A DNA stretch of 64,000 bases from Halorubrum yunnanense (GTDB taxonomy: Archaea; Halobacteriota; Halobacteria; Halobacteriales; Haloferacaceae): positions 24,110 to 88,109 of the forward strand of contig NZ_JAODIX010000039.1 of NCBI RefSeq assembly GCF_026586675.1, read 5' to 3'. Position 1 is the stretch's first letter, and every line of letters begins with the position of its first letter. Shown one piece after another: positions 11,219 to 52,116 of the stretch. A program made the translations under genes and the position numbers. A model generated the notes under the pieces. That model worked only from the letters and a program-made list of their open reading frames with translations, made no database searches and was not told the origin of the DNA.

Positions 11219-11389
11219 TTTATAAGTCGTTGCTGTCGGTGATGTAGAGAACGTCTCTAAAGCCCCAGCCGCTCGGTTATAAATAATCGACACAGGATCG
11301 TCGGCGAACACCGCCAAAGCCCCAGCCGCTCGCTTATAAATAATCGACACAGGATCGCCGGCGAACACCGCCAAAGCCCCAGCCGCGAG
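11219..11389 (+). repeat. Tandem 57-bp repeat array, copy A (3 units)
   Basis: Three head-to-tail units of exactly 57 bp begin at 11219, 11276 and 11333. Units 2 and 3 are nearly identical; unit 1 is more diverged. Each unit has TTATAA (at 11220, 11277 and 11334) and, exactly 39 bp later, AAAGCCCCAGCCG. An imperfect palindrome around CGGCGAACACCG sits at the expected transcription start, about 27 bp after the TATA-like box. The array leads directly into the structured body at 11384. It contains no spacers, so it is not a CRISPR. Confidence 0.85.
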
Positions 11390-11617
11390 GAGGGCGCACG
11401 CTCGCTGCGCTCCTCACTCGGTCGCTCACTTCGTTCGCTCCCTCGTTGCGGTGCTTACCTCGCCTGCGCCCTCCTCGCGACTGCCCCTTTGAGTCCCACC
11501 CCACACCGCGCCCCACAGCACCTCACGCCTCCCCAGCCTCGCGGCTCCCTACGGTCGCCGCGTCCCTCGCGCGCGCTTCTCGCGGCCTGTCGGCCGCTCG
11601 AAGGCACGCGCCGACCG
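11384..11617 (+). ncRNA. Candidate structured RNA / composite repeat body, copy A
   Basis: The body begins with stem arm CGCGAGGAGGGCGCA (11384-11398), which pairs perfectly with 11465-11479 around a loop of about 66 nt. A conserved block follows (CTGCCCCTTTGAGTCCCACC to CCTCCCCAGCCTCG), then further hairpins, including one with a GCGGCC/GGCCGC stem. The same plan occurs at three other loci with different but still complementary stems. Direction is inferred from the TATA-like array on its left. No protein-coding signal is convincing. A non-autonomous mobile element is an alternative reading. Confidence 0.45.
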
Positions 11618-11682
11618 CGTTGTTCGGATCCGATCGCCGAAACCCCGGAACCCCTTTGAATGGCCGCGACGACCGTTTCGGT

Positions 11683-21151: not shown

Positions 21152-21191
21152 CCGACGACACGAGCAACGGTTCCCAACGCCCAACCGTTTG

Positions 21192-21305
21192 CTTATAAAT
21201 AATTGAGTACAGATCGGCGGAGAACACCTCCAAAGCCCCAGCCGTTTGCTTATAAATAATTGAGTACAGATCGACGGAGAACACCTCCAAAGCCCCAGCC
21301 GCGAG
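21192..21305 (+). repeat. Tandem 57-bp repeat array, copy B (2 units)
   Basis: Two almost identical 57-bp units start at 21192 and 21249 (TTATAA at 21193 and 21250), with AAAGCCCCAGCCG at the same 39-bp offset. A degraded end of a further unit (AACGCCCAACCG) precedes them at about 21176-21187. The interior sequence (AATTGAGTACAGATCG) differs from copy A, while the units within this locus are nearly the same. Confidence 0.85.
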
Positions 21306-21526
21306 GCGGGCGCACGCTCGCTGCGCTCCTCACTCGGTCGCATCCGCTCCCTCATTGCGGTGCTTGCGTCGCCTGCGCCCGCCTCGCGGCTGCCCCTTTG
21401 AGCCCCACCCGACCGCACCGCAACCGCAGCCTCACGCCTCCCCAGCCTCGCCGCTCGCTTCGCTCGCGGCGTCCCTCGCGCGTGCGGCTCGCGCCTTTCA
21501 GGCGCTCGCAGGCACACGCCACCGCG
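21299..21526 (+). ncRNA. Candidate structured RNA / composite repeat body, copy B
   Basis: The main stem is CCGCGAGGCGGGCGCA (21299-21314) with perfect complement at 21374-21389. The conserved block (CTGCCCCTTTGAGCCCCACC to CTCCCCAGCCTCG) and two further hairpins follow; one has the stem GCGCCT/AGGCGC where copy A has GCGGCC/GGCCGC. The body ends six bases before the stop codon of the convergent CBS-domain gene, so its transcript would run antisense into that gene unless terminated. Confidence 0.45.
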
Positions 21527-21531
21527 TCGTT

Positions 21532-22608
21532 TTATAAATCACCGGCGTCCAGCGGGTCCTCCAGCTGTCCCAGCACCGACTCCATCGCGTCAGTCGCGGT
21601 GATCAGGCCGACGACCTCGCCGTCCTCGATCACTAGGGCGAGCTCCTGTGACTCCGCCTGGAACTGGTCGAAGGCGTTGCTGACGCTCGCGTCCGCCGAG
21701 ACTGTCATCGGCGGGGCCGCGACGTCCGCGAACGTCAGGTCGCCGTCCCGGAGCTCCTCGAAGCGGCTCACGATGGAGGGGGCGTACACGATCCCCTCGA
21801 AGTCGGTGAGGTCGTCGCCGACGAGCGGGAACCGGCTGTGCGGGGTGTCGCGGATCCGGTCGAGGTTCTCGTCGACCGACGACGCGGTCGACAGGGAGAC
21901 GACCTCGTCGGCCGGCGTCAGCACCTCCCGCACGGCGAGTTCGTCGACGTCGAGCGCGTTGAGGACCTCCTCGCGGCGCTCCTCGGGGAGATCGACCTCC
22001 TCCATCATCGAGCCGAGGCGGGTGCGGAGCTGCGCACGCGTCTCCAGCACCTCCTCTTCGGCCTCGGTCCACGAGCCGGTCATCTCGACGCCGAAGAGTC
22101 CGAGCGTGGCCTTCGCGACCCAGTCGCCGAACGTGATCAGCGGCGAGATGAGCCACGCGAACCAGTAGAGCGGTCGGGAGCCGTACTCCGCGACCTGCTT
22201 CGAGCGCTCGACGCCGAGGTACGTCGGCGTCTGCTCGCCGTGCGTCAGGTGGACCATGTTGATGAGGAAAAAGCCGAGGAGCGAGCCCGCGCCGGCGGAC
22301 GCGAACGCCGTGTTCTCGAATATGGGGGCGAACAGCGCCGCCAGCCCCGGCTCGGCGACGATGCCGAGCGCGATGGACGTCCCGGAGATCCACACCTGAC
22401 AGGTCGTCAGGTAGAACTCCAGGTCGTCGGTCATCTCCCAGGCCCGCCGCAGTCCGGGGGTGTCCATCTCCGATTCGGGGTACTGACGCAGGCGCGTCAG
22501 GCCGAACTCGATCGCCACGAAGTACGCGTTGATCAGGATGAGGGCGATGCCCGCCGCCACGCGGAGGCCGATCTCCCCGGGAGCCATCGCTGTCGCGAGG
22601 GGAATCAT
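21532..22608 (-). CDS. CNNM/CorC-type membrane protein with CBS pair
   Basis: The 358-residue protein has a DUF21 (CNNM) membrane domain (about residues 1-170, with helices and LINAYFVAIEFGLTRLR), followed by two CBS domains (about 220-345). Family members are linked to magnesium or cobalt export. It lacks the C-terminal CorC_HlyC domain of longer relatives. The ATG at 22608 is chosen over a GTG three codons upstream. The stop codon abuts repeat copy B. Confidence 0.87.
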   Translation of the reverse strand: MIPLATAMAPGEIGLRVAAGIALILINAYFVAIEFGLTRLRQYPESEMDTPGLRRAWEMTDDLEFYLTTCQVWISGTSIALGIVAEPGLAALFAPIFENTAFASAGAGSLLGFFLINMVHLTHGEQTPTYLGVERSKQVAEYGSRPLYWFAWLISPLITFGDWVAKATLGLFGVEMTGSWTEAEEEVLETRAQLRTRLGSMMEEVDLPEERREEVLNALDVDELAVREVLTPADEVVSLSTASSVDENLDRIRDTPHSRFPLVGDDLTDFEGIVYAPSIVSRFEELRDGDLTFADVAAPPMTVSADASVSNAFDQFQAESQELALVIEDGEVVGLITATDAMESVLGQLEDPLDAGDL

Positions 22609-22699
22609 CGTCCCCACCGTCCCGACGCGCGACGGAAAAGCGTTGAGGGACCGAGCGGGAACGAGCCGGCCTCTGGCGGCGCCGAACCGCGCCGGCCGC

Positions 22700-31184: not shown

Positions 31185-31198
31185 ATGATCCGCCGGTG

Positions 31199-31481
31199 CG
31201 GTCGGCGCGTGCCTGCGAGGCCGCTTTGCGGCCGAGTCGCGAGGGACCGAAGGTCCCTCTGGCAGCCGGCGCTACGCGCCGGCGACAGCACCGCGCGAGG
31301 GACGCCGCGAGCGAAGCGAGCGGCGAGGCTGGGGAGGAATGAGGCTGCGGTGCTGTGCGGGCGGGGTGGGACTCAAAGGGGCAGTCGCGAGAGGCGCGGA
31401 GGCGACGCAAGCACCGCAAGGAGGGAGCGAACACAGTGAGCGACTGACTGAGGAGCGCAGCGAGCGTCCGCGCCTCTCGCG
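31199..31481 (-). ncRNA. Candidate structured RNA / composite repeat body, copy C
   Basis: This copy is inverted relative to A and B. Its main stem (CGCGAGAGGCGCGGA at 31386-31400 with perfect complement at 31467-31481) differs from the others. The conserved block lies at about 31325-31384 (GGCTGGGGAGG to CTCAAAGGGGCAG). To its left are perfect hairpins GGCCGC/GCGGCC (31219-31233), GGGACC/GGTCCC (31243-31257) and GCCGGCGC/GCGCCGGC (31265-31283). Strand is inferred from the TATA-like repeats on its right. It sits between two convergent genes. Confidence 0.45.
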
Positions 31482-31680
31482 GCTGGGGCTTTGGCGGTAT
31501 TCACCGTCAATTCGCAGTCAATTGCTTATAAACGAGCGGCTGGGGCTTTGGCGGTATTCACCGTCGATCCGTATGCAGCCATTTATAACCGAGCGACAGG
31601 AGGTTCGAACCCGTTCACCGCCCAGTACGTGCCGACAGCCACTTATAAACGAGCGGTCGGGGCTTCAGTACTGCTGACGC
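31479..31680 (-). repeat. Tandem 57-bp repeat array, copy C
   Basis: Read on the minus strand, units of 57 bp (31479-31535, 31536-31592), a 60-bp unit (31593-31652) and a partial unit carry TTATAA and AAAGCCCC at the same spacing as elsewhere. The two units nearest the body are most alike; those farther away diverge. A GGTTCGAACCC word in the third unit imitates a tRNA T-loop but no tRNA fold is present. Confidence 0.8.
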
Positions 31681-31696
31681 CAATCACGTCTGAGTC

Positions 31697-32425
31697 TCAT
31701 ATTGACTGCGCGAGCAACACCACGTAGATGACGCCGTTGTACACGCCGTGCGCGAGGCCGGGGACCCACACGTTCCCCGTGCGCTCGTAGAGGGCGCCGA
31801 GCACCGCGCCGAGCACGACGACGACGGCGACGTACGCCCACCGCTGGCCGGGCGTCCCGGAGACGGAGGGGAGGTGGACCAGCCCGAACGCAAGGCTCGC
31901 GAGCAGGATCGCCGGACCCGCGTCGAACGCGCGGCGGATCCCGCCCTGAACGACCCCGCGGAACAGCGCCTCCTCGACGGGCCCGACCACGAGCAGCGAG
32001 ACGGCGATCATGACGAGGTAGTACGTCACCGGGTCGCCGTCGGGGACGACCGCCTGGTTCTGCCCGGTCGTGAGCCCGATCTCGCCGAGCACGAACAGCG
32101 CGCCGTACTGGAACGCGAACAGGACCGCCCCGCCCGCGAGGGCGAGCCCGGCGTCTCGGAGCGTCGGCCGGCCGGCGCGGACGAGCCCCCACTGGTCGGT
32201 GATCGCGAGGTAGCCGACGACGGCAACCAAGAAGCCGGCGAACTGCAGCAGGGTCCGGAACACCTGCAGCCCGGTCGTCCCCTCTCTCACGAGCCCCAGC
32301 GAGACGGCGGACTGGGAGAGGGGCGCCGTCACCGCGCTGGCGACGAACAGCGCGAGGATGACCGCGAACACCGCGCTCGCGACGCGGAGGATCCGGTTCA
32401 CCGGCTCGGGGGGCGTCTCGCTCAT
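31697..32425 (-). CDS. CPBP-family intramembrane metalloprotease
   Basis: The 242-residue membrane protein has about seven helices and the CPBP (CAAX protease/bacteriocin-processing) motifs: EEALFRG in the middle, FGLVHLP next, and HGVYNGV near the C-terminus. These form the zinc-type active site in the membrane. Substrates in haloarchaea are unknown. It converges on nurA with repeat copy C between. Confidence 0.88.
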   Translation of the reverse strand: MSETPPEPVNRILRVASAVFAVILALFVASAVTAPLSQSAVSLGLVREGTTGLQVFRTLLQFAGFLVAVVGYLAITDQWGLVRAGRPTLRDAGLALAGGAVLFAFQYGALFVLGEIGLTTGQNQAVVPDGDPVTYYLVMIAVSLLVVGPVEEALFRGVVQGGIRRAFDAGPAILLASLAFGLVHLPSVSGTPGQRWAYVAVVVVLGAVLGALYERTGNVWVPGLAHGVYNGVIYVVLLAQSI

Positions 32426-43731: not shown

Positions 43732-43829
43732 CGCGATGGGATCGGCGCCGCCCGCGCTAAGGGGTTACGAAGCGGTCGTACCCGGAGAGTCGGTTGGGGC
43801 AGTTATTTATCAATAATCGCGGTGGCGCG

Positions 43830-44100
43830 CTCCGGTGAGCGCCCCGGGGGCGCGAACCGGGCGCGAGGGAGTCGGTCGCCCGGAGCGAAGCGGAGGGCGG
43901 CCGACAGGGCGAGAGCGAAGCTCTCGCTTGCAGCCGGCGGCTTCGCCGCCGGCGACGAGGCTGGGGAGGCGTGAGGTGCGGTGCTGTGCGGTGGGGTGGG
44001 ACGCAAAGGGGCAGCCGGGCTCGACGGACCCCAGCGACGCAAGGACCGCAGGGAGCGTCGCGACCGAGGACCGCAGCGAGCTGTGGGAGTCGAGCCCGGC
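43830..44100 (-). ncRNA. Candidate structured RNA / composite repeat body, copy D
   Basis: The main stem is GCCGGGCTCGAC (44014-44025) with perfect complement at 44089-44100, again different from the other copies. The conserved block runs from GGCTGGGGAGG to CGCAAAGGGGCAG at about 43970-44013. Further left are a GCCGGCGGC/GCCGCCGGC hairpin (43933-43953), GCGAGAGC/GCTCTCGC (43909-43927) and a long hairpin built from GTCGG...CCGAC and CGCCC...GGGCG (43871-43905). Strand is inferred from the repeats at its right end. Confidence 0.45.
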
Positions 44101-44323
44101 TGGGGTTTTGGCGGTGTTCACCGTCGATCCGCCAGCAACGACGTACAACCGAGCGGCTGGGGTTTTGGCGGTGTTCGCCGTCGATCCGCCAGCAACGACG
44201 TACAACCGAGCGGCTGGGGTTTTGGCGGTGTTCGCCGTCGGTTTACCGTCACTCGTTTATAAGTGAGCGGCTGGACCTTTGGCGTTGTTCAACGCCGATC
44301 AACCGCCAGAAACGCCGCAGAAC
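44096..44323 (-). repeat. Tandem 57-bp repeat array, copy D
   Basis: Units start at 44096, 44153, 44210 and 44267 (the last degraded), each 57 bp apart. The first two units have GTACAAC where other units have TTATAAA, so their TATA-like box is lost. The third keeps TTATAA. The rest of each unit is conserved (GGCTGGGGTTTTGGCGGTGT). The array ends just before the PAN stop codon. Confidence 0.85.
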
Positions 44324-45838: not shown

Positions 45839-46395
45839 GCGACGAGACGACGGACGCGACGGTCCTCGCGGTCGACGACGAGCCCGACCTCGCCGAGCTG
45901 TACCGGGTGTACCTCGAGTCGGCGTACGACGTCCGGATCGCGACCGGCGGCGAGCCGGCGTTAGACCAGATGGACGAGTCGGTCGACGTCGTCCTCCTCG
46001 ACCGACGGATGCCGGACATGTCCGGCCACGAGGTGCTCTCGGCCATGCGCGAGGCCGGCTACGACGCTCGCGTCGCGATGCTGACCGCGGTCGAGCCCGA
46101 CGTCGACATCGTCGACATGCCGTTCGACGACTACAAGACGAAGCCGGTGACGAAAGAGGACCTCCTCACGCTCGTCGAGGTGCTGCTCCACCGGGCGGAG
46201 TTCGACGAGCACAGCCAGGCGTTCTTCGCGCTGGCCTCGAAGAAGGCCGCGCTGGAGGCCGCCGGCACGACGAGCAACGAGGAGTACGAGGAGCTCGTCG
46301 AACGGATGGAGTCGGTCCGCGACCGCGTGGACGACACGCTCGACCGCCTCTCCGCACGCGACGCGTTCGTCGAGGTCCCGGGCAGCGTCCCGTAG
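45835..46395 (+). CDS. Response regulator with HalX domain
   Basis: The 186-residue protein has a receiver domain (about residues 8-120; Asp14-Asp15, phosphoacceptor Asp56 in LLDRRMPDMSG, Lys in YKTKPV) followed by a HalX domain (about 125-180), a helical haloarchaeal output module of unknown activity. No histidine kinase lies nearby, so it is probably an orphan regulator. Palindromes and a leader ORF upstream suggest tight control. The last codons lie in a 44-bp tandem duplication. Confidence 0.88.
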   Translation: MSDETTDATVLAVDDEPDLAELYRVYLESAYDVRIATGGEPALDQMDESVDVVLLDRRMPDMSGHEVLSAMREAGYDARVAMLTAVEPDVDIVDMPFDDYKTKPVTKEDLLTLVEVLLHRAEFDEHSQAFFALASKKAALEAAGTTSNEEYEELVERMESVRDRVDDTLDRLSARDAFVEVPGSVP

Positions 46396-46468
46396 TTCGG
46401 GGCGGCGTCTCGCAGTCCGTTCCGGGCAGCGTCCCGTAGTTCGGGGCGGCGTCTCGCAGTCCGTTCCG
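46381..46468 (+). repeat. 44-bp perfect tandem duplication
   Basis: A 44-bp unit beginning GGCAGCGTCCCGTAG occurs twice in immediate succession, at 46381-46424 and 46425-46468, followed by a partial third start (GGCGGCGTCCCGTCG). The first copy contains the last codons and stop of the HalX gene. Because a stop is in each copy, the protein is unchanged. The exact identity points to a recent duplication. Confidence 0.9.
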
Positions 46469-46504
46469 GGCGGCGTCCCGTCGACCGAGACCGGCTCAAC
46501 CCGC

Positions 46505-51789: not shown

Positions 51790-52116
51790 GCCGCAGCGGG
51801 GGTTCACCTGCCTCTGTCTCGTTGGGTGACCGCCGGTCGGTGGCCGACTCGCGCTCTGTGTTCGGCGGCCCCTCGACGAACGGTCGTCGATCGAGGACTC
51901 CGACGGGGCCGTCTGTTTTCAAGCGACTGTCGCGAGCGCGGTGAACGCGTCTGTCGATCTGAGCGAGCGCTTATAAATGACTGGCTGCGGACCGACGGTG
52001 AATCTCTCCAAAGCCCCGGGCTCGTCGCTCGCCTCGTGGCCGGGGACGCCGCCGCGACTGGTCTGTCGGTGCCGTGACCGTCCCGTTTTTATCCGTGGGA
52101 CGGGGAGACACACGTG
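51790..52116. other. Intergenic region between BrkB and cofH
   Basis: This 327-bp gap holds one unit of the composite repeat (51964-52020) and the cofH promoter, TTTTTAT near 52085-52091, about 29 bp before the ATG. The first half (51790-51940) shows no gene or obvious signal. Confidence 0.5.
51964..52020 (+). repeat. Single-unit remnant of the 57-bp repeat, copy E
   Basis: TTATAA at 51971 and AAAGCCCC at 52010 are again exactly 39 bp apart, and CGACGGTGAATC matches the palindrome zone of the other units. No structured body follows: the sequence after AAAGCCCC diverges at once. It reads in the same direction as copies A and B. Confidence 0.75.

Follow-up and report, generated by a model that had tools for sequence, protein, structure and literature searches.

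The window analysed here, a stretch of 64,000 nucleotides from Halorubrum yunnanense, carries at positions 11219-11389 three consecutive copies of a 57-bp unit. These units stand at the left end of a dispersed element of approximately 350-450 bp, in which they are followed by a hairpin (hairpin 1), conserved C-rich motifs and two further hairpins (hairpins 2 and 3). Arrays of 57-bp units were found at four places in the window (11259-11386, 21180-21301, 31479-31595 and 44097-44240). As detailed below, each array consists of local duplicates of the left end of a hairpin-rich DNA repeat that is apparently mobile. The copies in the window, designated E1 to E4, and a remnant are:

11219..11619, + strand: E1, whole element with three left-end units, hairpins 1-3 and right end CGACCGCG (sequence, motif positions)
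11219..11385, + strand: E1, tandem units, with TTATAA at 11220, 11277 and 11334 and AAAGCCCC feet at 11259, 11316 and 11373
11381..11483, + strand: E1, hairpin 1, AGCCGCGAGG...CCTCGCGACTG (folding, covariation over 234 distinct copies)
11481..11501, + strand: E1, conserved motif CTGCCCCTTTGAGTCCCACCC (per-position conservation in 240 copies, class-wide search)
11529..11541, + strand: E1, conserved motif CTCCCCAGCCTCG (motif positions)
11539..11561, + strand: E1, hairpin 2
11562..11619, + strand: E1, hairpin 3 and right end
21193..21526, + strand: E2, two units with feet at 21232 and 21289, B motif at 21390-21410
31197..31648, - strand: E3, feet at 31542-31549 and 31485-31492, hairpin 3 region with additional twin hairpins
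43818..44262, - strand: E4, feet at 44216, 44159 and 44102, hairpin 2 region with additional twin hairpins
51964..52017, + strand: remnant, a lone unit without a body, TTATAA at 51971, foot AAAGCCCC at 52010

E1, about 400 bp long, ranked at the top of the 40 genome copies that were scored. Downstream of its last foot the order is hairpin 1, CTGCCCCTTTGAGTCCCACCC, a variable CA-rich linker, CTCCCCAGCCTCG, hairpin 2, TCCCTCGC and hairpin 3, and its right end has the form (C)ACCGC. The foot of hairpin 1 is CAAAGCCCC...GCCCCTTTG; at its base CAAAG faces CTTTG and CCCC lies opposite GCCC, and in E1 the flanking AAAG (5′) and CTTT (3′) extend the foot around a CCCC/GCCC internal loop. The motif CTGCCCCTTTGAGTCCCACCC presents C-tracts on the + strand and G-tracts on the opposite strand. 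The sequence AAAGCCCC, which occurs eight times in the window versus 0.55 expected by chance, belongs to the hairpin base and is not a free signal. The right edge of E2 has a TTATAA at 21532 that shares bases with the stop codon of a convergent gene encoding a CBS-domain protein, and this box is also present in some relatives that do not have the element. Many copies contain twin-hairpin modules, such as CCGGCGCTACGCGCCGG next to GAGGGACCTTCGGTCCCTC with a TGGCAG linker, inside hairpin 1, 2 or 3; examples are the bodies L046, L041, L048 and L075 and, in the window, 31197-31320 and 43818-43970. Copies L009, L021, L101, L104 and L106 contain runs of N within hairpin 2 or 3, which may mean that such palindromes defeated the draft assembly. 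The window also holds, at 46378-46482, an unrelated 44-bp tandem repeat (2.4 copies, 98% matches).

The core motif was matched 105 times in the 3.17-Mb genome, allowing up to three mismatches, and a reversed control gave no match; 96 motif copies were parsed, 93 of them with a recognisable left foot. We extended the search to a class-wide sample of 391 genomes from 86 genera, including 46 Halorubrum genomes. The core was present in 44 of these 46, at 1-175 copies each, and at least one match was found in 40 of the 86 haloarchaeal genera sampled. In other genera the core takes the form GAAAGCCCC-hairpin-GCCCCTTTCAGTCCCACCC, and 12 of 33 such copies are inverted pairs in which GGGTGGGACTGAAAGGGGC faces the core. 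Halorubrum closes the foot with a C-G pair and the other genera with G-C, which, from sequences read directly, is a double change that preserves pairing. In the open-access literature searched, including that on haloarchaeal repeats and a query with the literal core sequence, we found no published description of this repeat family.

The first-pass annotation had described an exact 57-bp period at all loci, with TTATAA placed 39 bp before AAAGCCCC. The repeats and the spacing of the box hold in the window: wherever TTATAA is within reach it lies exactly 39 bp upstream, at nine of eleven feet, with AAAACCCC counted and the lone remnant included. Genome-wide, 39 bp separates box and foot in 110 of the 126 units that have TTATAA, and the distance in the others is 31-38 bp. 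The period itself is not universal, as the outermost TATA of E3 lies 60 bp from the next and 57 bp accounts for 110 of 130 spacings in the genome, the remainder being 48-60 bp. Spacings of 51, 66, 69 and 72 bp also occur in other Halorubrum species, giving an overall range of 48-72 bp. Across all parsed Halorubrum loci, spacings other than 57 bp are mostly multiples of three (28 locus counts versus 9). A reading frame running through the units was considered and rejected, minus-strand frames being only slightly more open than column-shuffled controls.

The number of units per element ranges from one to six among the 93 elements with a recognisable foot, and the similarity between units shows where they arise. 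In loci with at least three units the hairpin-proximal pair is on average 92% identical and the outermost pair 55%; an identity of 95% or more is reached by 31 of 99 adjacent pairs but by no pair between loci. New units accordingly arise locally, on the hairpin side. In G018, a Halorubrum genome with 88 body copies, the body is unchanged and only one unit is present in 29 of 40 elements, and in other genera only two of 33 core copies have a duplicated foot.

That a structured body follows the units, as the first-pass annotation proposed, is borne out by covariation. At stem positions 5-11 of hairpin 1, 82-96% of the pairs are Watson-Crick, compared with 35-77% with shuffled partners (234 distinct sequences), and stem positions show up to four pair types. 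The near-invariant foot CAAAGCCCC...GCCCCTTTG is followed by CCCACCC; over 240 copies the foot and C-tracts are conserved at 96-100%, and the one base that separates the CCC runs at 67%. A transcription start had been placed in a small palindrome, CGGTGAACACCG, just before the body. The position about 30 nt past the TATA box does correspond to a conserved GGTGAAC immediately 5′ of the hairpin foot, but the palindrome, with 27% Watson-Crick pairs at its variable pair and no covariation, is not a conserved hairpin, and we rejected it as an RNA element.

The mismatches within the stems are informative about the strand. Among non-canonical pairs at the 12 well-paired positions of hairpin 1, A.C outnumbers G.T by 109 to 23, counts that are not independent because the copies share ancestry; three stem positions each show the excess (49:2, 14:0 and 33:0), and in hairpins 2 and 3 the bias has the same sign in all four data sets. 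As A.C in our orientation corresponds to G.U or G.T wobble pairing on the opposite strand, this asymmetry suggests that the folded strand is the bottom one. In folding predictions hairpin 1 was also more stable on the bottom strand in 85 of 93 copies. Four conserved G-tracts surround the hairpin foot on that strand and could close a quadruplex there; ViennaRNA with the quadruplex option on preferred the plain hairpin, for a stretch that excluded the GGGTGGG tract. Two further copies show changes at the foot that look like hairpin-templated events. In L368 (~1716), a G018 copy, the right foot is changed from CCCC to GGGG, which completes the palindrome, and in L349 (~1479) hairpin 1 is missing exactly at the foot.

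Movement of the element is evident in G018, where two copies, about 2.2 Mb apart and with unrelated flanks, share 423 bp at 94.6% identity and have sharp ends. In H. yunnanense the copies are old, the closest one to E1 in the same genome being 84% identical, so that recent movement is shown only in G018. The site between an Rpb4-type gene and the next gene is occupied in H. yunnanense and six relatives, and is short and empty in G017 and G019. A comparison of locus L069 of G003 with window positions 21193-22617 and 31197-32425 revealed a single element flanked by the left neighbour of E3 and the right neighbour of E2 (the CBS-domain gene), a breakpoint in gene order within the element that suggests ectopic recombination between copies. 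Among the 84 elements for which both neighbours were called, by codon-usage predictions, 35 lie between convergent genes, a placement also reported for other mobile repeats (PMC3049150), and 13 between divergent genes; only 33 have a gene of the same orientation downstream of the body. Such positions are what one would expect if insertions are tolerated where genes end, and not if the units were promoters of the following gene.

Our searches for a source of mobility yielded no partner transposase. No target-site duplication was seen at the TATA boxes, where left and right flanks resemble each other no better within a locus than between loci, the exact ends not being fixed in the Halorubrum lineage. 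Of 30 TnpB loci taken from 12 Halorubrum genomes, none has the core or the second motif, isolated short matches aside, and an IS605/TnpB origin was rejected for lack of shared ends. An autonomous relative with the same left end was sought in G018 and likewise rejected, as all 30 loci inspected carried the core or the second motif and none had a longer body. The vehicle search gave no match in phages, in four plasmid records or in one viral contig.

The first-pass annotation read the units as a tandem promoter array ahead of a structured non-coding RNA, each TATA box starting a transcript about 30 nt downstream that runs into the hairpins. The TATA-like box is genuine, as is its usual distance: 75 of the 93 genome elements (81%) have one or more exact TTATAA units, the box keeps its 39 bp in the great majority of units that have it, and its distance from GGTGAAC is that of Halorubrum gene promoters, whose TATA boxes peak 29-31 nt before the ATG. 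The flanks of the unit TATA also score better on the + strand than on the - strand; they resemble gene promoters weakly, however, with a log-odds of +0.46 versus 1.37 for 35 gene promoters, and the haloarchaeal BRE, given as CGAAA (PMC4983044), is not apparent in them. Several tests count against promoters as the reason for the repeats. The box is optional, found in 126 of 223 units of the genome, in one of 52 in G018 and upstream of one of 33 core copies in other genera, where the body is nevertheless abundant and conserved. It is often missing from inner units that are amplified all the same, as in two inner units of E4, and elements do not retain at least one TATA more often than chance (61 versus 62.4). 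The far side of the body is marked nearly as frequently: 66 of 89 elements have a TATA-like box no more than 45 bp from the right end, versus 1.5% of background stretches. In addition, the mismatch asymmetry favours the opposite strand, the downstream gene is co-oriented in fewer than half of the cases and AAAGCCCC is part of the hairpin base. We therefore regard this reading as quite unlikely: serving as a promoter array is probably not the main role of the units, and candidate promoter activity of the TATA boxes does not explain the repeat pattern, even if the conservation of the box and its spacing in the Halorubrum lineage suggests some function of its own. Haloarchaeal rRNA operons, to which the arrays had been likened, have multiple promoters and share with them repeated TATA boxes ahead of a structured region. 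The likeness goes no further, as the window holds no rRNA or other Rfam family, the copies are dispersed and number about 100, and the TATA box is optional and found also at the far edge.

Transcription might instead enter from the right end, making the element one of a family of structured RNA genes on the bottom strand with the 57-bp units as a 3′ tail. The excess of A.C over G.T in all three hairpins and the greater stability of the bottom-strand fold would agree with this. Strand-specific recognition of single-stranded DNA, however, would produce such an asymmetry too, the counts come from copies of shared ancestry, and the right-edge TATA is too near hairpin 3 for a start 30 nt downstream, which together make a bottom-strand RNA highly improbable. 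A role as bidirectional terminator or 3′-end insulator, with hairpins that work in the transcripts of adjacent genes, would account for the excess of elements at gene 3′ ends and in convergent intergenic regions, for the strong hairpins and for the T/A-rich box at the right edge. Yet copy number ranges from 0 to 175 among species, and orthologous sites can be empty, so the element is not required at those genes, and termination needs neither the conserved C-rich motifs nor tandem left ends; we consider this role improbable. A broader proposal, unlikely in our view, is a class-wide mobile or domesticated family whose working form would be one folded strand, a hairpin with a GGGG/GGGC internal loop that takes up an adjacent conserved GGGTGGG, making a quadruplex inside a duplex, and that is recognised single-stranded; in Halorubrum it would drive duplication of its own left foot, with the promoter-like box carried along.

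The reading we favour, and consider reasonably probable, is a non-autonomous mobile palindromic repeat resembling PATE and BOX elements, whose left end is amplified by slippage at the hairpin foot. The element would be moved in trans by an enzyme that recognises the folded single strand. The left-end units would increase in number through stalling of replication at the hairpin foot, followed by slippage back to the CAGCCG copy upstream, each slippage adding one unit on the hairpin side; we infer slippage from the homogeneity of proximal units and an apparent hairpin-templated change. The TATA-like boxes at both edges would be termini or a preferred AT-rich target, and not a device for transcribing the body.

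By behaviour, the nearest haloarchaeal category is that of the palindrome-associated transposable elements (PATEs), which occur with SMR-A repeats in Haloquadratum walsbyi (PMC3119063). Like the element described here (423 bp in the mobile copy), PATEs and SMR-A are haloarchaeal, of high copy number, too short to encode a transposase and devoid of terminal inverted repeats; PATEs have near-terminal palindromes, comparable to hairpin 1 on the left and hairpin 3 on the right, and SMR-A inside PATE palindromes parallels the twin hairpins as small repeats inserted into palindromes (PMC3119063). As no link to IS605-type ends was found, we do not file the Halorubrum element as a PATE, from which it differs also in its conserved C-tract core, its tandemly duplicated left end and the recurrence of its modules as inverted pairs in other genera. 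For the modular tandem units the nearest analogue is BOX of Streptococcus pneumoniae, a non-coding repeat of modular build that is dispersed, differs between copies in how many tandem internal modules it has, has a predicted RNA structure and is over-represented between convergent genes (PMC3049150). BOX belongs to another domain of life, and in the Halorubrum element it is the main hairpin's foot that the tandem modules duplicate; BOX serves as an analogue only.

With up to about 175 copies per genome and a distribution that reaches through the haloarchaea, this family would rank among the most abundant non-coding elements in their genomes, and its elements offer a natural series of unit numbers for studying hairpin-associated repeat expansion in an archaeon.
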